Shown here piece after piece: positions 9,051-15,057 of a stretch of DNA of 64,000 bases; positions within the stretch are counted from its first letter, which is position 1, and every line of letters begins with the position of its first letter. Location of the stretch: assembly GCA_029862045.1 (NCBI GenBank), contig JAOTYE010000007.1:62001-126000 (forward strand), written 5' to 3'. This stretch comes from Gammaproteobacteria bacterium (GTDB lineage Bacteria > Pseudomonadota > Gammaproteobacteria > Steroidobacterales > Woeseiaceae). The notes below the pieces were generated by a model. The model did not search any database and was not told where the DNA came from. It worked only from the letters and a program-made list of their open reading frames with translations. The position numbers and the translations under genes were made by a program.

Positions 9051-10478
9051 ATGAGCAAGAGTTATGACGTAGTAGTCATCGGCGCGGGCCCGGCAGGTTA
9101 CATCGCAGCTATTCGTGCGGCACAACTTGGTATGAATGTCGCGTGCATTGACGAATGGAAGAACACGGATGGCAAGAACGCATTCGGTGGCACCTGCCTC
9201 AACGCGGGCTGCATACCCTCCAAAGCTCTGCTCGAATCGTCTGAGCTCTATTATCGCGCGCAACATGAATTCAAGAAGCATGGCATAACGACAGGTGATG
9301 TCGAAATGGATATCGCCGCCATGCAGAAACGGCGCGTCAGTATCGTACGGCAGTTGACCGGCGGCATAGCAGGACTCTTTAAAGCCAACAAGGTCGATGG
9401 CCTCGTAGGCCACGGCAAGCTACTGGCCGGCAAACAAGTCGAATTCACACCGGTAGATGGTGAGTCGGAGGTCATTGCGGCCACGAATGTAATCCTCGCA
9501 TCGGGTTCGGCACCGATCGAGCTCGGCGTAGCACCTTTCGATAGTGAGAAGATCGTCGATTCCTGGGATGCGCTCGAGTTTGACGCCGTGCCCGCGACCC
9601 TTGGCGTAATCGGCGCCGGTGTCATCGGTCTCGAGCTCGGTAGCGTGTGGGCGCGGCTCGGAGCAAAAGTCACGATCATCGAGGCGATGGATGACTTCCT
9701 GTTCATGGCGGATCGCGATGTCGCGAATGTCGCTGCGAAGGACTTTAAAAAGCAGGGGCTCGACATCAAACTCGGCGCCAAGATGACGTCAGCCAAGACC
9801 GGCAAAAACGGAGTTACTGTTGAGTACGTGGATCAGTCGGGCACGCAGTCGTTCGATGTCGAAAAGCTTATTGTTGCTGTTGGTCGCAGACCATTCACCG
9901 ATGGCTTGCTCGCCGAGGATTCAGGGATTCAACTTGATGAGCGAGGATTCATCGTCGTCGATGACGAGTGCAGGACGCGGGTAAAAGGCGTGTATGCGAT
10001 CGGCGATTCTGTGCGCGGACCGATGCTCGCTCACAAGGCATCGGAAGAGGGCGTAATGGTTGCCGATCTGATTGCAGGCGAACTCGCCGAGGTGAACTAC
10101 AACGTCATTCCATCGGTCATCTACACAGCACCCGAGATCGCCTGGGTTGGCAAAACTGAAGAAGAAGTAAAAGCGAGCGGCCGTCCCTACAAGACGGGAT
10201 CATTCCCGTTTGCTGCGAATGGCAGGGCCAAAGCGCTGGAACAGACCAGCGGAATGGTCAAAGTTATTTCGGCGTCAGACGACGACGAAATACTCGGTAT
10301 TCACATCGTCGGGCCCATGGCCGGCGAACTCATCTCAGAAGCCGTACTTGCATTGGAGTTTTCGGCGAGCACCGAAGATCTGCAGCGTACGATTCATGCG
10401 CACCCGAGCCTGGCCGAAGCAATCCACGAAGCGGCTCTCGCGGCCGACAAGCGTGCTCTGAATTATATGAACCGATAG
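9051..10478 (+). CDS. lpdA: Dihydrolipoyl dehydrogenase (E3)
   Basis: 475 residues, standard length. This FAD enzyme reoxidises the dihydrolipoyl arm and reduces NAD. Seen: the FAD-binding [16 protein letters not shown] at the N-terminus, the redox-active disulfide motif [13 protein letters not shown] (Cys49 and Cys54), the NAD-binding [20 protein letters not shown], the second FAD motif [21 protein letters not shown], and the C-terminal [13 protein letters not shown] whose His is the catalytic base. It closes the sucAB-lpdA operon. No clear hairpin terminator follows; the repeat-rich accessory region begins instead. Confidence 0.97.
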
Positions 10479-10585: not shown

Positions 10586-10725
10586 TGTCGGCGCCTGGCC
10601 GTTCGCAGACTGTTTTATCGACACAAGCAGCACTAAGTGGATGACCGCTTTACGCCCGAAAGGGGACATTGAGCTAATATTGTCTTGAAGGGCCGCTAGT
10701 GACCCATTCCGGCCCCTCGACATTT
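10586..10725 (+). repeat. Composite hairpin repeat, copy 1 (three palindromic units)
   Basis: Three imperfect palindromes: H1 at 10586-10610 (degenerate, ending CTGGCCGTTCGCAGAC), H2 at 10642-10670 (TGACCGCTTTACGCCCGAAA then GGGGACATT) and H3 at about 10692-10724 (GCCGCTAGTGACCC...). H1 and H2 start 56 bases apart and H2 and H3 start 50 apart, matching the other copies in the region. It fills most of the 274-base gap after lpdA. Confidence 0.75.
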
Positions 10726-10752
10726 GTCGGTATACAACCGCATTCAGCGACT

Positions 10753-11256
10753 ATGGACGACGACGAAAAACAGAAAAATTACGAGTTGGCAGAAAAGCTG
10801 ATATCGGAACAGAATTTTACTGCGGCCGTCATCACCGGAGCTATCGCTATGCTCCTTGCCGCTGTCGCCTACGGCATTATCGTCGAAGCATGGCCAATTT
10901 CGTACGGCTTCGCGGCGGCAGGTGTCGGCGTTGTAATTGGATTCTCCATGGGTTTTCTCGGGCGCGGAATTTCGATGAAGTTCTCAATAGTGGCCGCGGT
11001 ATATACGATTGCCGGCTGCGTTCTCGGTAACTTGTTCGTGAAAATCGTTAATCTGATGCAAGCAACTGCGGCCTCTCCGATTGACGTTATCCAGAGGAAT
11101 CCCTTGCCGGTGCTCGCACAGTGGTCGGTTTCGGGCTTGTCCTTCATCCATCTTGTCTTCTGGTTTGTGGCTGTCTTCGCCGCAGTGTTCTTGGCCAAGA
11201 GGCCACTATCTCGTGCTCAGAGATTAGCAATCGGCATGCTTGAATTGAGAGCTTAA
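10753..11256 (+). CDS. Uncharacterised small membrane protein with four helices
   Basis: 167 residues. A charged, amphipathic N-terminus (MDDDEKQKNYELAEKL) precedes four hydrophobic helices at roughly residues 20-45, 50-70, 75-100 and 125-150, with a short loop MQATAASPIDVIQRNPLPVL before the last. I recognise no family signature; overall it resembles small inner-membrane proteins of unknown function. The ATG at 10753 is chosen because an upstream in-frame GTG at 10699 falls inside the repeat H3 unit and would add residues unlike the rest. It is the first of five plus-strand genes separated by composite repeats. Confidence 0.6.
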   Translation: MDDDEKQKNYELAEKLISEQNFTAAVITGAIAMLLAAVAYGIIVEAWPISYGFAAAGVGVVIGFSMGFLGRGISMKFSIVAAVYTIAGCVLGNLFVKIVNLMQATAASPIDVIQRNPLPVLAQWSVSGLSFIHLVFWFVAVFAAVFLAKRPLSRAQRLAIGMLELRA

Positions 11257-11294
11257 ATCGTGCCGTAAAATGGTTGCAGGCCGTTGAGTCTCGA

Positions 11295-11487
11295 TGACCG
11301 CTTGTGGCCGAAAGCTGCCCTTCGATTTGCGAGATTTTGAGCTGATTAAATGACCGCTTTCGGTGAAAGCAGACATTCAGCCTGAGGCTTTCGAAATCGG
11401 GCCGCCCAATGTCCGCTTAACGCCCTGCAGCAGACATTAGGCTAGTATTGGGCTAAAGGGCCGCTAGTGACCCAAAGCGGACATTAG
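11295..11487 (+). repeat. Composite hairpin repeat, copy 2 (modules A and B)
   Basis: Module A: H1 at 11295-11319 (TGACCGCTTGTGGCCG then AAAGCTGCC), a 31-base spacer, H2 at 11351-11377 (TGACCGCTTTCGGTGAAAGC then AGACATT). After 32 bases module B: a 29-base unit at 11410-11438, a 21-base spacer and a 28-base unit at 11460-11487 (CCGCTAGTGACCCAAAGCGG). Each unit is an imperfect palindrome built on GCTT...AAGC. Together with short flanks they occupy most of the 437-base gap between two genes; I see no coding sequence in that gap. Confidence 0.8.
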
Positions 11488-11693
11488 GTACAAGCCAGTA
11501 TTGACCGTCTCTCGCCTGGATTCATACTTGTTCTGACAAAGGCAAATCCAGCCAAAGCTGGTGACGCAATGCCACGGGTCCTCGTCTCCTCCGCGACTAC
11601 ACGCCACGAAGAACCCAAGATCGCCGGGCTGCCGATTGTGCGAACGGGCTCACTATTCGCATGAAACTGCAAAAACACACTCGGGAGGTAAGC

Positions 11694-12335
11694 ATGAAAA
11701 GCTGTATGAGATTTGCTCCGCGGCTGGTTCTGGCCTGCGTTACGTTTCTGGTGGCGGCATCGGCTTGGGCCGAGAAACCAATGGATTACACCAGAGGCCC
11801 GCTCCACTTCGGCCCATTTCCGTTTTTTGACTGCACACAGTTTGACGGTATGGACTTCTGGGTTTGGGCCGAGGGCGACACGATGGAAGTCGGCAAGCTA
11901 TTTTTCGACAAGGACGGTGTGTTAACACAAGCGATCGGCACTAGTTACACAGCCAATGCATTGATATGGGCTCCTGCCGATCCGGGGTGTAACGAGGCGC
12001 CTTTCGCAGCGTGTTTCGACCCTTGGACGCCGATGCCCGGAACCGCTACACACTCGGCGGATGACAACGTTGGGCGAACCGAACACAGTACGGCGATCTA
12101 TCGAGATTGGATCTATGTCGAACCAGACTGGATCCCGACTTGGACGAAGAACTCGGGGCTTTCGTTACACATCGGCATTCCGGGTTACGGGAATATCTTC
12201 ACTAATGCGGGAACCGTCGAAACGCAGTTGAATCTCGCGACATTTCAATGGGAAGTCATCAAGATGACGCCAGACTGGAATGATGCGAAGATCAAAGACG
12301 TGTTTGCCCTGTGCTCGTACATTGGTAACCAGTAG
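11694..12335 (+). CDS. Secreted protein of unknown function
   Basis: 213 residues with a classical signal peptide (MKSCMRFAPRLVLACVTFLVAASAWA, cleavage about residue 26). The mature part is rich in Trp, Phe and Pro (FGPFPFFDCTQFDGMDFWVW, IYRDWIYVEPDWIPTW) and has six Cys, suggesting a disulfide-stabilised beta-rich periplasmic or extracellular domain. I do not recognise the family. GGGAGG lies a few bases before the ATG at 11694, which decides the start over an in-frame ATG at 11661. A terminator-like hairpin and a composite repeat follow. Confidence 0.7.
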   Translation: MKSCMRFAPRLVLACVTFLVAASAWAEKPMDYTRGPLHFGPFPFFDCTQFDGMDFWVWAEGDTMEVGKLFFDKDGVLTQAIGTSYTANALIWAPADPGCNEAPFAACFDPWTPMPGTATHSADDNVGRTEHSTAIYRDWIYVEPDWIPTWTKNSGLSLHIGIPGYGNIFTNAGTVETQLNLATFQWEVIKMTPDWNDAKIKDVFALCSYIGNQ

Positions 12336-12367
12336 CACATTTGCTGTCAGAATTTCGTATGACGAGT

Positions 12368-12396
12368 GGCCGGGGTGTTCCCACTCCGGCCCATTT
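12368..12396 (+). terminator. Hairpin terminator after the secreted-protein gene
   Basis: GGCCGG (12368-12373) pairs with CCGGCC (12386-12391) around a 12-base loop and is followed by CATTTCGTT. The U tract is weak, so activity is uncertain; its place 30 bases after the stop fits a terminator. Confidence 0.5.
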
Positions 12397-12408
12397 CGTT
12401 AGATTCAA

Positions 12409-12535
12409 TGGCTGCTTCTGGCCGAAAGCTGCCACTCTGAAACGTCGATAATCGACTGTCCTAATGACCGCTTTGGGTGAAAGCAGACATTAGGCTGATA
12501 TCGCCCTGAAGGGCCGCTAATGGCCTAAAGCATGG
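12409..12535 (+). repeat. Composite hairpin repeat, copy 3 (three units)
   Basis: H1 at 12409-12433 (TGGCTGCTTCTGGCCGAAAG then CTGCC), 31-base spacer, H2 at 12465-12491 (TGACCGCTTTGGGTGAAAGC then AGACATT), 21-base spacer, H3 from 12513 (GCCGCTAATGGCC). The H1-H2 distance is exactly 56 bases, as in the other copies; H2-H3 is 48 because this H2 is two bases shorter. It takes up almost half of the 292-base gap. Confidence 0.8.
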
Positions 12536-12627
12536 CAGTGGGCAATAGCAAACAATTGTGAATTTTGACTGGGTTAGGTGAATATCCAGATAAGTTGTCG
12601 GATTGAGGCTTTTCGATGGAGACAACA

Positions 12628-13014
12628 ATGAAGCGTAGAAACCTATGGACCCTGATATCACTGTCATTATTGATATCGCTTCCCGCGACCACCTTGGCGC
12701 AGACAGGAAAAGACAAGGCGAAATCGGCGCGGGAAAATGCAGACCGCACGGAACATGTGCGTTCTGAGACAGAAAATGCGCAGGCAAAGATGCCCTCCGA
12801 CGCTGAAGATGCCAAGACGAAAGGTAATGAACAGGCGCAAGAAATGCGAGAACGGCGCGACGAGCGAAAATCAATTCAGGAAGAATACAAGTCCGATCGG
12901 ACGCCGGGTCAGGAAGCCGACTCCGCTCTGACCCCCGATGATGACGAGGACGAAAAGGCTGAAGAGGCCAAAGAAAAACCCAAGAAAGCATGGTGGAAGT
13001 TCTGGGGAGGCTAG
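12628..13014 (+). CDS. Exported, highly charged low-complexity protein
   Basis: 128 residues. A signal peptide (MKRRNLWTLISLSLLISLPATTLAQ, cleavage about residue 25) is followed by about 85 residues dominated by Lys, Glu, Asp, Arg, Gln and Ala with almost no hydrophobic residues, so probably helical or disordered. An acidic stretch DDDEDEKAEEAKEK leads to an abrupt Trp-rich end, KKAWWKFWGG, which could insert in a membrane surface. I recognise no family. GGAG six bases upstream supports the ATG at 12628 over one at 12616. Codon use is AT-richer than in neighbours. A good terminator follows. Confidence 0.7.
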   Translation: MKRRNLWTLISLSLLISLPATTLAQTGKDKAKSARENADRTEHVRSETENAQAKMPSDAEDAKTKGNEQAQEMRERRDERKSIQEEYKSDRTPGQEADSALTPDDDEDEKAEEAKEKPKKAWWKFWGG

Positions 13015-13047
13015 AAGTGTCTCTGATACATTCCAACAGTTAGAAAG

Positions 13048-13072
13048 AACCCGTCCTCGTGGCGGGTTTTTT
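13048..13072 (+). terminator. Rho-independent terminator
   Basis: AACCCG (13048-13053) pairs with CGGGTT (13063-13068), 9-base loop, followed by a run of T to 13072. It lies 33 bases after the stop of the charged-protein gene. Confidence 0.8.
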
Positions 13073-13085
13073 GTGGCTGAGAAAA

Positions 13086-13289
13086 GGACCGCTTCTGGCC
13101 GAAAGCTGCCCTTCGATTTCCCCGATTTTTAGCTGATTGAATGACCGCTTTGGGTGAAAGCGGACATTCAAATGCGTTCAAATCGTAGCTGCCAAAAAAT
13201 CAGCCTCTGAGTGACCGCTATACACCCGAAAGCAGCCGGTCGCCTGATATGATGTTGACAGGCTGCTAATGACCCGAAGCAGACGGTCG
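13086..13289 (+). repeat. Composite hairpin repeat, copy 4 (modules A and B)
   Basis: Module A: H1 13086-13110 (GGACCGCTTCTGGCCGAAAG then CTGCC), 31-base spacer, H2 13142-13168 (TGACCGCTTTGGGTGAAAGC then GGACATT). After 43 bases module B: left unit 13212-13240 (TGACCGCTATACACCCGAAA...) and right unit from 13262 (GCTGCTAATGACCCGAAGCA), 50 bases apart start to start. The spacer of module A closely resembles that of copy 2. The whole 305-base intergenic gap is otherwise empty of genes. Confidence 0.8.
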
Positions 13290-13319
13290 CAAAATATTGC
13301 GAAATCGATCGGAGAGCGT

Positions 13320-13802
13320 ATGAATTTTCACCTGGCCCAACTTAATGTTGCTCGCTTCAAACTACCGCAGGCGCATCCTGATAATGCTGATTTCGTTAAT
13401 AGCTTAGACAGAGTTAATGCTATTGCCGAAACTCAACCCGGCTCTGTTTGGCGATTCACAGGGGATGGCAACGACGCACTAGATGTTCAGGCATTCGACG
13501 ATCCCAATATCGCTGTCAATCTCTCAGTTTGGACTGACTTAGACGCGCTGAGTGCTTTTGTTTATGAAAACGAAGAACATCTTGGGATAATGCGGCGTAG
13601 GAGAGAGTGGTTCGACAGGATGGAGTTTCATCTAGTTTTGTGGTGGGTAACGGCGGGCCACGTGCCTACGTTGGACGAGGCAAAGCAGAAGCTCGAGATC
13701 TTGGTGAAGCAGGGCCCTTCCGGGGATGCCTTTACGTTCAGGAAACCTTTTCCGCCGGAAGGCGCAGACGCTATTCAACCGATACTGGATGAGTGCGGGT
13801 AG
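13320..13802 (+). CDS. DUF3291 domain protein
   Basis: 160 residues. It begins HLAQLNVARFKLP and contains NLSVWTDLDALSAFVY and RRREWFDRM, the conserved pattern of DUF3291, a family in the dimeric alpha-beta barrel group that includes monooxygenase-like folds. The reaction is unknown. GGAG about five bases before the ATG at 13320 sets the start; an earlier in-frame ATG at 13269 lies inside the repeat. It is a single-gene unit between composite repeats. Confidence 0.75.
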   Translation: MNFHLAQLNVARFKLPQAHPDNADFVNSLDRVNAIAETQPGSVWRFTGDGNDALDVQAFDDPNIAVNLSVWTDLDALSAFVYENEEHLGIMRRRREWFDRMEFHLVLWWVTAGHVPTLDEAKQKLEILVKQGPSGDAFTFRKPFPPEGADAIQPILDECG

Positions 13803-13804
13803 TG

Positions 13805-13887
13805 TGGCCGCTTCTGGCCGTTAGCCGCCTGTCATATTATCGATTTCTGCGATGTTTGAATGACCGCTTTAGGTGAAAGCAGTCATT
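13805..13887 (+). repeat. Hairpin repeat, copy 5 (module A only)
   Basis: H1 13805-13829 (TGGCCGCTTCTGGCCGTTAG then CCGCC), 31-base spacer, H2 13861-13887 (TGACCGCTTTAGGTGAAAGC then AGTCATT). It starts three bases after the stop of the DUF3291 gene. No module B is seen before the next gene. Confidence 0.8.
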
Positions 13888-14027: not shown

Positions 14028-14969
14028 ATGATAACGAAGACGATGGTTTGTTCGGTGCTAGCAGGAATCTTACTTTGTGCGTGCACGCAATCTCAGGTTG
14101 ATGTCGGCGCCGAGCGGGCCGCGTTGCAGGCTGCTGCAGATGCTTATCATGCGGCCGGCGCAAGCATGGATGCCGCCGCTTTTGCAGGTTCGTACGCGAG
14201 CGACGGACTTCTACTTCCGCCGAATGAAGCCGCTGTGACCGGTCGTGACGGTGCGCTTGCCTTTATGACGGCATTTGCGGAGGCACCCGGTGCCAGTGTT
14301 AGCTTCTCCGACATGAACGTCGTGGTCGCGGCGAGCGGAGACATGGGTTATACGCTGGCGGACGCGGTCGTCGTTGTTGACGGACACGACGGCCAGCCAA
14401 TCGAGGAAGAGATTCGCGACTTTCATCTCTGGATAAAAGAAGACGGGGAATGGAAGATATCCGTCGATATCTGGAATGAAGCAGGGCCTGCGCCGGGCGG
14501 CGCAGCGGACGCATCTGATCCGATTGCCGACGCGCTCAGCGCCGCATGGCCTGGTATGGCAGAAGATGCGAAGGTGGTCGACTGGGACGGAAATGTGCTT
14601 CGAGAAGGCTCCAACGGGTATACGTGTCTGCCGACGCCACCAATGCTCTCCGGAACCGCGCCCATGTGCATGGATGGCGAATGGATGAAATGGGCCGGTG
14701 CATGGCAGAACAAGGGAGATTACGCAGCCGAATCACTAGGCATCTCTTACATGCTGAGCGGCGACGAGGGTGCCAGCAATATTGATCCTTATGCGGAAGG
14801 CCCGACTGAGGACAACGAATGGATCGTCGAAGGGCCACACTTGATGATTCTCGCGCCTACCGAGCTGCTGGAGGGCTATCCGGCAGATCCGGAGAACGGC
14901 GGCCCGTACGTCATGTGGAAAGGCACACCCTATGCACACCTGATGGTACCGGTCGGTTCACGTGACTGA
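14028..14969 (+). CDS. Lipoprotein with SnoaL/DUF4440-like domain and a novel C-terminal half
   Basis: 313 residues. A lipoprotein signal ends in LLCAC (Cys about residue 19). Residues about 30-155 read as a nuclear-transport-factor-2-like fold of the SnoaL/DUF4440 type: AALQAAADAYHAAGASMDAA, FAGSYASDGLLLPPNEAAVTGRD, and RDFHLWIKEDGEWKISVDIWN, the typical final strands. Residues about 170-313 form a second domain with WDGNVLREGSNGYTCLPTPP and a closing VMWKGTPYAHLMVPVG that I have seen in proteins of unknown function. The ATG at 14028 follows AGGGAG. A strong terminator follows. Function unknown; the first domain often binds small hydrophobic ligands. Confidence 0.7.
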   Translation: MITKTMVCSVLAGILLCACTQSQVDVGAERAALQAAADAYHAAGASMDAAAFAGSYASDGLLLPPNEAAVTGRDGALAFMTAFAEAPGASVSFSDMNVVVAASGDMGYTLADAVVVVDGHDGQPIEEEIRDFHLWIKEDGEWKISVDIWNEAGPAPGGAADASDPIADALSAAWPGMAEDAKVVDWDGNVLREGSNGYTCLPTPPMLSGTAPMCMDGEWMKWAGAWQNKGDYAAESLGISYMLSGDEGASNIDPYAEGPTEDNEWIVEGPHLMILAPTELLEGYPADPENGGPYVMWKGTPYAHLMVPVGSRD

Positions 14970-15032: not shown

Positions 15033-15057
15033 TGTCCGTTCCTGGCCGAAATCGGCT
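15033..15057 (+). repeat. Hairpin repeat, copy 6 (H1 unit only)
   Basis: TGTCCGTTCCTGGCCGAAAT then CGGCT resembles H1 of the other copies. No H2 follows at the expected 56-base distance because the end of the minus-strand symporter gene starts at 15061. It marks the right border of the repeat region. Confidence 0.55.

Follow-up and report, generated by a model that had tools for sequence, protein, structure and literature searches.

Paired palindromic repeats in a Woeseiaceae genome are probably the sites of an integron-like cassette platform that has a minimal recombinase of its own

Integrons are the classic example of how bacteria accumulate and rearrange single genes, and their attC sites carry the motifs GTTRRRY (R′) and RYYYAAC (R″). 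Composite intergenic palindromes with fixed internal spacing are also known as repetitive extragenic palindromes and bacterial interspersed mosaic elements (REP/BIME), with an associated RAYT transposase (Y1 HUH), and the FimB/FimE invertases invert one promoter segment. The dif site measures 28 bp, with two 11-bp arms and a 6-bp centre, in the account used here (PMC6449649). The present analysis concerns a composite palindromic repeat, five copies of which lie between positions 10586 and 13887 of a 64,000-nt stretch of DNA (the window; contig JAOTYE010000007.1, positions 62,001 to 126,000, assembly GCA_029862045.1) from a gammaproteobacterium of the Woeseiaceae. With a probability of about 0.6, these repeats are the sites at which a cassette platform resembling an integron recombines genes by means of a minimal recombinase of its own. 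The enzyme that joins the cassettes probably differs from that of integrons and is unusually small.

According to this proposal, a unit termed H1 would close the upstream gene and a unit termed H3 would open the downstream gene, the stretch between them being a linker. Exchange at the cores of the units, H1 with H1 and H3 with H3, would excise, insert and shuffle gene-plus-linker cassettes, keeping a single orientation. The likely enzyme would be a 208-amino-acid (aa) tyrosine recombinase encoded at an array on another contig of the genome (C11), which may cut at the cores and move the cassettes as circles. Exchange between double-stranded sites is favoured over a single-stranded route.

Four unit types can be distinguished. 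H1 and H3 are simple palindromic sites, units of 24–28 nt in which arms GNCYGCTT and AAGCRGNC flank a 6-nt core, TGGCCG in H1 and TGACCC or CGACCC in H3. H2 is a near-inverted H3, and the fourth type, H2′, recognised by eye, resembles GNCCGCT.TACGCCC. In the long form of the element, about 190 nt in total, H2 starts 54 nt after H1 and H3 108 nt after H2, with H2′ in between; in the short form H3 follows H1 at 46 nt, giving 74 nt in total with 22 nt separating the units. Loci were chosen for further analysis because of their sites or recombinase genes, and their open reading frames (ORFs) were called mechanically, by length. Profiles for the units were trained on 35 of 75 loci (752,033 bases) selected from the genome and its relatives for holding sites, the 40 held-out loci being picked around matches to an H3 pattern; many of the relatives' genomes are fragmented drafts. 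The 75 loci contain 225 H1, 105 H2 and 243 H3 matches, compared with 3, 0 and 1 in the reversed sequence (573 versus 4). The H2 pattern ATGACCGCTTTNGGTGAAAGCNGACATT, at three mismatches or fewer, matches four times in the window versus none in each of 100 shuffles, and 24 times genome-wide versus none for the reversed pattern; the 24 matches cluster on few contigs, several of them close to contig ends.

The spacing of the units is restricted to a few values. Neighbouring H1 and H2 are offset by 54 nt in 83 of 88 pairs, H1 and H3 by the 46 nt of the short form in 48 of 85, and H2 and H3 by 108 nt in 32 of 63 and by 89 nt in another 13. The small number of exact offsets indicates that the spacing is not drifting freely. 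The composite repeat with rigid spacing described in the original prediction, which was made from the window alone, is real and recurs in the genome and its relatives, and a check for freely varying spacing or for decaying copies of one duplication left it standing. The units, predicted as imperfect palindromes around GCTT…AAGC, lie where they had been placed and have the structure arm–core–arm given above. In the window, the profiles score H1 at 10587, 11296, 12410, 13087 and 13806 and more weakly at 15034, H2 at 11350, 12464, 13141 and 13860, and H3 at 10690, 11458 and 13260; copies 1 and 3 of the element are partly degenerate. The five predicted H1–H2 offsets of 56 nt are correct in the numbering used then (54 nt between profile starts), and four of them are true H1–H2 pairs; no H2 scores at 10642, where the unit is of the H2′ type. 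Likewise, the spacing of the predicted 50-nt pairs holds, while the pairs themselves are H2′–H3, with H2′ seen by eye at 10642, 11409 and 13212, and in the 48-nt pair 12465/12513 an H2 is directly followed by a degenerate H3 that the profile leaves unscored.

The elements are arranged with the genes in a regular manner. Across the 75 loci, adjacent elements lie on the same strand in 230 of 256 cases, and the element shares its strand with the gene upstream of H1 in 165 of 197 cases and with the gene downstream of H3 in 161 of 200. The held-out loci give 43 of 58 and 54 of 70, respectively. Exactly one ORF of at least 80 aa is found in 120 of 151 same-strand intervals (none in 9, two in 15, three in 7), and where the gene shares the strand of H1, the median distance from its stop codon to the start of H1 is 28 nt. 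One co-oriented gene between successive elements, with H1 shortly behind the stop codon, is the plan of a gene-cassette array. It is also seen in a genome of the same genus (L056), where 17 H1–H3 elements, 16 of them 74-nt short forms, separate 18 co-oriented genes. The explanation lies beyond the span of the original prediction, in the single co-oriented gene per interval and in a recombinase gene located on another contig. The array of the window is organised as follows.

9051–10478, + strand: lpd, dihydrolipoyl dehydrogenase, left flank (Pfam; related loci)
10587–10717, + strand: element 1, array left end, beginning 108 nt past the lpd stop; H1 10587–10610 (degenerate) and H3 10690–10717 (right arm degenerate) by profile, H2′ ~10642–10666 by eye
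10753–11256, + strand: cassette gene 1, no Pfam match; ORF from 10699, in-frame ATG at 10753 chosen as start from the sequence
11294–11488, + strand: element 2, full long form; H1 11296–11319, H2 11350–11377 and H3 11458–11485 by profile, H2′ ~11409–11433 by eye
11531–11636, + strand: cyclic di-GMP (c-di-GMP)-I riboswitch aptamer, located after element 2 and before cassette gene 2 (Rfam RF01051, 52.7 bits versus a gathering score of 35)
11661–12335, + strand: cassette gene 2 (224 aa), no Pfam match; N-terminus signal-peptide-like by eye
12410–12527, + strand: element 3; H1 12410–12433 and H2 12464–12491 by profile, degenerate H3-like unit 12511–12527
12616–13014, + strand: cassette gene 3 (132 aa), no Pfam match
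13087–13287, + strand: element 4, long form; H1 13087–13110, H2 13141–13168 and H3 13260–13287 by profile, H2′ ~13212–13236 by eye
13320–13802, + strand: cassette gene 4, DUF3291; ORF from 13269, in-frame ATG at 13320
13806–13887, + strand: element 5; H1 13806–13829 and H2 13860–13887, no H3 scored
14028–14969, + strand: cassette gene 5, DUF4440/SnoaL-like; ORF from 13962, in-frame ATG at 14028
15034–15057, + strand: weak H1-like site, array right end (score 22.5), 3 nt before the symporter stop codon
15061–16644, − strand: sodium:alanine symporter, right flank (Pfam; related loci)

Comparison with related loci shows that this array is an insertion between lpd and the symporter gene. Among 32 other genomes with an lpd match, 14 lpd loci from 13 genomes were compared. 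In 10 of the 14, lpd lies directly next to the convergent symporter gene with −3 to 102 nt between the stop codons, and no site was scored in the fetched flanks of these 10 array-free loci; in the window, the same two genes are separated by 4,582 nt that contain five genes. Among the remaining four loci, the contig ends before the symporter in two (L109 and L119) and two hold other ORFs (L106 and L107). The weak H1-like site 3 nt from the symporter stop suggests that the array is bounded by H1 at both ends. Homologues of cassette gene 4 were found in 17 of 59 other relatives, 16 at 38–47% identity and one, partial, at 63%.

Sequence identity between copies switches within the H1 and H3 units. 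Sites were compared pairwise (25,200 H1 pairs and 29,403 H3 pairs) and excess identity was computed for each position. For H1 pairs that agree in the right flank only (91 pairs, 69 sites), the excess is 0.02–0.22 at the variable arm positions 2, 4, 6, 8 and 9 and rises from the core onward. H3 pairs that agree in the left flank only (99 pairs, 88 sites) lose identity past the core, the excess being −0.26 to 0.36 at the variable positions 17–19, 22, 24 and 26. Genes common to different linkers are rarer than this: the right flank alone is shared by five scored H3 pairs (7 sites) and the left flank alone by one H1 pair. Two relatives assigned to different families (G016 and G044) have 2,388 nt in common, with 3 mismatches and no gap, from GCTAATGAC within an H3 unit to the contig start in G044, and the linkers to the left differ. 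In the genome under study, a gene end at the start of contig C36 equals another on C26 with one mismatch; the two part directly after TGGCCG, and the gene end is joined to two different linkers (L028/L033). The G016/G044 segment comprises two genes (L065:5224-7611 and L069:1-2388) and may have been transferred recently, or may be an artefact of contamination or of faulty assembly in a draft genome. Two array ends, L027:9844-10289 and L029:7823-8267, have a 446-nt module in common (91%) that overlaps a riboswitch and starts at H2, so H2 may serve as a junction too.

The candidate enzyme was found among six PF00589 matches in the genome, one of which lies within the array on contig C11 (L027:15686-16312). 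No N-terminal SAM-like domain was found in this tyrosine recombinase; PF00589 is its only domain match, and the predicted model does not show such a domain either. All 18 aligned members have the catalytic R-K-H-R-H-Y set of tyrosine recombinases (R59, K87, H156, R159, H182 and Y191), in a region aligned to XerD. A search with the predicted structure (mean predicted local distance difference test score, 77) retrieved Xer, Cre and IntI structures, with template modelling (TM) scores for the query of up to 0.53 and root-mean-square deviations of 12–16 Å in the best rows, values that mark the model as rough. Like FimB and FimE, it is a small tyrosine recombinase of about 200 aa; its match to the NCBIfam invertase model PRK09871 is sub-threshold (E = 3e-7), the Xer models match better and are also below their cut-offs, and unlike the invertases, it is found with arrays of direct sites. 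Transcription of the gene leads away from the first cassette, an inverted H3 separates the two, and an H2′–H3 element lies directly behind its stop codon. An inverted H3 in this attI-like position upstream of the recombinase gene is present in L027, L047, L049 and L050, and by eye in L048, where a short ORF lies beyond it.

Within the set of 60 related genomes, the recombinase is encoded in six, this genome included. In five of these (G000, which is the genome under study, G016, G036, G044 and G007), array sites are located on the recombinase contig within about 3 kb; no such site scores in G011, the most divergent of the six. Matches are present in 8 of 274 genomes at the level of the class (E ≤ 1e-50) and 55 of 398 at the level of the phylum (E ≤ 1e-60), this genome being counted in both, and 1,458 plasmid records match the recombinase, 704 of them over at least 80% of the protein and 1,269 at less than 60% identity. 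The family is common on plasmids and chromosomes of Proteobacteria, where it has so far been named just 'tyrosine-type recombinase/integrase'. In open-access full-text literature, with few subscription papers and no preprints, neither the site nor the recombinase was found described as a cassette system.

Distant members of the family were examined at 42 loci, 38 from genomes and four from plasmids; one (L192) has the same sequence as another (L052), and two genomes contribute two loci each. With the profiles trained on the arrays, 28 of 42 downstream flanks exceed the 95th percentile of controls and 20 exceed the 99th; upstream flanks exceed the 95th percentile in 20 of 42, a somewhat inflated count, since these flanks measure up to 400 nt against 250-nt controls (the downstream flanks measure 250 nt). 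The fetched regions of the plasmid members pMOL30, pLM6, pRSB223 and pTX1 contain no consensus match and show single weaker profile matches beside the gene. On pMOL30, a metal-resistance plasmid of Cupriavidus metallidurans CH34, the site (L052, 6613-6637) lies directly behind the recombinase gene. The single-contig genome G102 encodes two recombinase copies and has 14 H3 matches versus 0 for a control pattern. Its two recombinase genes lie 3.5 to 5 kb from inverted H3 pairs with starts 84 nt apart (L136:4882-4993 and L137:5797-5908), a different form of the element. Near a recombinase relative in genome G322, low-scoring repeats (L142, 3562-3719 and 10505-10658) have cores CGACCC and TGGCCGG and different arms, as if the arms had changed and the cores had stayed.

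Site abundance follows the enzyme among the 60 relatives when many sites are required. At least eight H3 matches occur in four of six genomes with the recombinase versus six of 54 without it (Fisher P = 0.005), and the association persists at five or more matches (P = 0.012).

Four rival readings were considered. It is unlikely that host XerC and XerD move the modules at dif-like sites, as in the Acinetobacter dif modules, with the small recombinase as a passenger. The resemblance is in the sites, since in both systems the gene modules are flanked by palindromes of about 28 nt that have a centre of 6 nt; furthermore, XerC and XerD are encoded in the genome, and the small recombinase is not seen in many array-bearing relatives. 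In contrast to dif, which has two different arms, one motif is present on both arms here. The dif modules have oppositely oriented sites and use the host enzymes, whereas the sites described here repeat in a single orientation next to a separate recombinase gene; in distant members of the small-recombinase family, such a site often adjoins the gene. An ordinary integron, or a cluster of attC sites lacking integrases (CALIN), whose attC sites have diverged too far to be recognised by the usual motif, is quite improbable. Analogous to integrons, the arrays consist of single small genes on one strand with a site directly behind each stop and two simple sites per element, a recombinase gene pointing away from the first cassette, an attI-like site separating the two, array pieces without a recombinase, as in CALINs, and mixed cargo. 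In addition, H1 and H3 can pair through their outer arms, as R″/R′, and through their inner arms, as L″/L′, one short form folds in this way (L027:14202-14280), the minimum-energy fold pairs the outer arms in 25 of 48 short forms, and IntI fragments below the cut-off are present in the site-bearing G016 and G031. Against this, outer arms also pair in 119 of 300 chimeric sites and covariation is weak; single-strand folding is not clearly selected. No integrase in the genome exceeds the TIGR02249 cut-off, the best matches being the XerD and XerC genes; the small recombinase itself gives 19.5 bits over 64 residues. Integrases over the cut-off are found in 11 of the 60 relatives, and among these, H3 matches occur in G044 alone. 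Neither GTTRRRY nor RYYYAAC is enriched, with 8 and 4 occurrences at the 225 H1 sites (shuffled means 10.2 and 6.3) and 9 and 9 at the 243 H3 sites (8.8 and 13.6); the cores are TGGCCG and TGACCC instead. The recombinase is not IntI and is a catalytic domain only, both ends of the element look like junctions, and the long form adds two palindromes. The lack of an IntI over the cut-off and of attC motif enrichment, the lone catalytic domain and the one-way elements are the reasons for filing the arrays under neither integrons nor dif modules.

That palindromic repeats akin to REP/BIME or miniature inverted-repeat transposable elements jumped into intergenic spaces, the genes being ordinary residents, is very doubtful. 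The elements do resemble REP/BIME as composite palindromes between genes with fixed internal spacing, and linker bodies are near-identical in different contexts (98.4% over 187 nt, L030:6730 and 9368). Unlike such repeats, they are clustered in arrays, keep a fixed orientation relative to the genes and have a tyrosine recombinase nearby; neither genes nor repeats are present at the orthologous position in relatives, one gene segment common to two genomes begins within an H3 unit and is preceded by different linkers, and the variable outer-arm positions follow the gene side and not the linker. A selected RNA structure between co-transcribed genes, such as a terminator or a processing or stability element, is highly improbable. 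It would fit the place of the element between a stop codon and the next same-strand gene, and the 48 short forms have mean folding z-scores of −1.6 (top strand) and −1.4 (bottom strand). The two strands fold about equally, however, and the switch points and the absence from relatives would be left unexplained. Covariation between the arms within units is not significant (H1, P = 0.09; H3, P = 0.054; H2, P = 0.33), and that between the inner arms of the element's two ends, with a raw z of 4.3, drops to P = 0.04 or weaker when sequences are shuffled within genomes, so none clearly survives. At gathering score, the elements match no Rfam family; the window's Rfam matches are one tRNA and one c-di-GMP-I riboswitch. 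With covariation weak under two types of shuffling and modest folding z-scores, the folded RNA, one of three options in the original prediction, was rejected; the other two, a protein-bound DNA array and a mobile unit with fixed ends, are supported by palindromic sites that have switch points inside the units and join apparently mobile gene cassettes.

The cassette-platform reading has its own difficulties. Some ORFs in the intervals (28 of 171) run opposite to the element, and the elements scored in G036 (L048) are situated 2.5 kb past the 3′ end of the recombinase gene, on the gene's own strand. At the switch points, H1 positions 3, 5 and 7 keep an excess identity of 0.43–0.75 on the side counted as different, although these positions are near-invariant and say little, and the conserved H3 positions 20, 21, 23 and 25 keep 0.54–0.91. 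Most switch points are linkers common to different genes, which gene conversion could also produce, and the stretch common to G016 and G044 is near-identical, ends at a contig start and has an atypical H3 core (TGACGG). When a single H3 match suffices, the association with the recombinase is not significant (P = 0.24). H3 matches occur in 27 of the 60 genomes, of which four carry the recombinase and 23 have no hit at E ≤ 1e-20; conversely, this H3 pattern finds no match in G007 and G011, which encode the recombinase. The arrays may have decayed, or a different enzyme may drive them. Because the drafts are fragmented and their contigs often end at repeats, the absence of the recombinase is weak evidence; breakage of draft assemblies at such repeats is mentioned for integrons in the part of one source considered here (PMC9024848). 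Of 27 genomes of the wider Proteobacteria, the 17 that have the enzyme contain 33 matches to a recombinase-site motif (8 for the reversed control) and the 10 that lack it contain 16 (4 for the control); the motif is no commoner with the enzyme, so no association and no large arrays are seen there. As a separate observation, six of the eight motif matches of genome G384 fall within 112 kb (C1:3332086-3444284), and this genome has no recombinase match at E ≤ 1e-60.

We lean, if only slightly, toward a broader view in which the arrays belong to a cassette-capture platform apart from integrons and dif modules. In such a platform, a catalytic-domain-only recombinase would act on paired palindromic double-stranded sites, genes and linkers would be interchangeable separately, and chromosomal arrays of dozens of cassettes, some with their own c-di-GMP riboswitch, would have formed in at least one lineage. 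If this is true, bacteria have another route to collect and swap genes, and cassette capture has more than one origin, this one using sites and an enzyme missed by the integron motif and integrase tests applied here. It would also hint at the activity of a widespread recombinase family, found as well on plasmids with metal or drug resistance genes, provide a new pool of small genes of unknown function and allow the need for folded single strands in cassette exchange to be tested on a simpler enzyme.

The cargo of the arrays is varied. In the first 35 loci, the 143 co-oriented cassette ORFs of at least 80 aa have a median length of 184 aa. Scans were run on 110 cassette proteins, of which 109 were picked manually from the 143, following no set rule, and one is the product of a window gene that is not among the 143. 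A shared cargo function was rejected, as 90 Pfam families occur among the 110 proteins and none in more than three; a defence island was likewise rejected, 13 PADLOC families matching, none in more than two proteins, with a best E of 2.5e-19. Cassettes carrying their own second-messenger control would be unusual. Of 15 c-di-GMP-I riboswitches over the cut-off in the genome, seven lie in or at arrays: the one in the window (11531-11636), L027:11783-11888 and 9795-9901, L028:18618-18731, L029:7767-7880, and L030:8459-8563 and 10687-10800. Five of the seven are located just before a gene on the element strand, one has no ORF near it, and one (L030:10687) is on the other strand.

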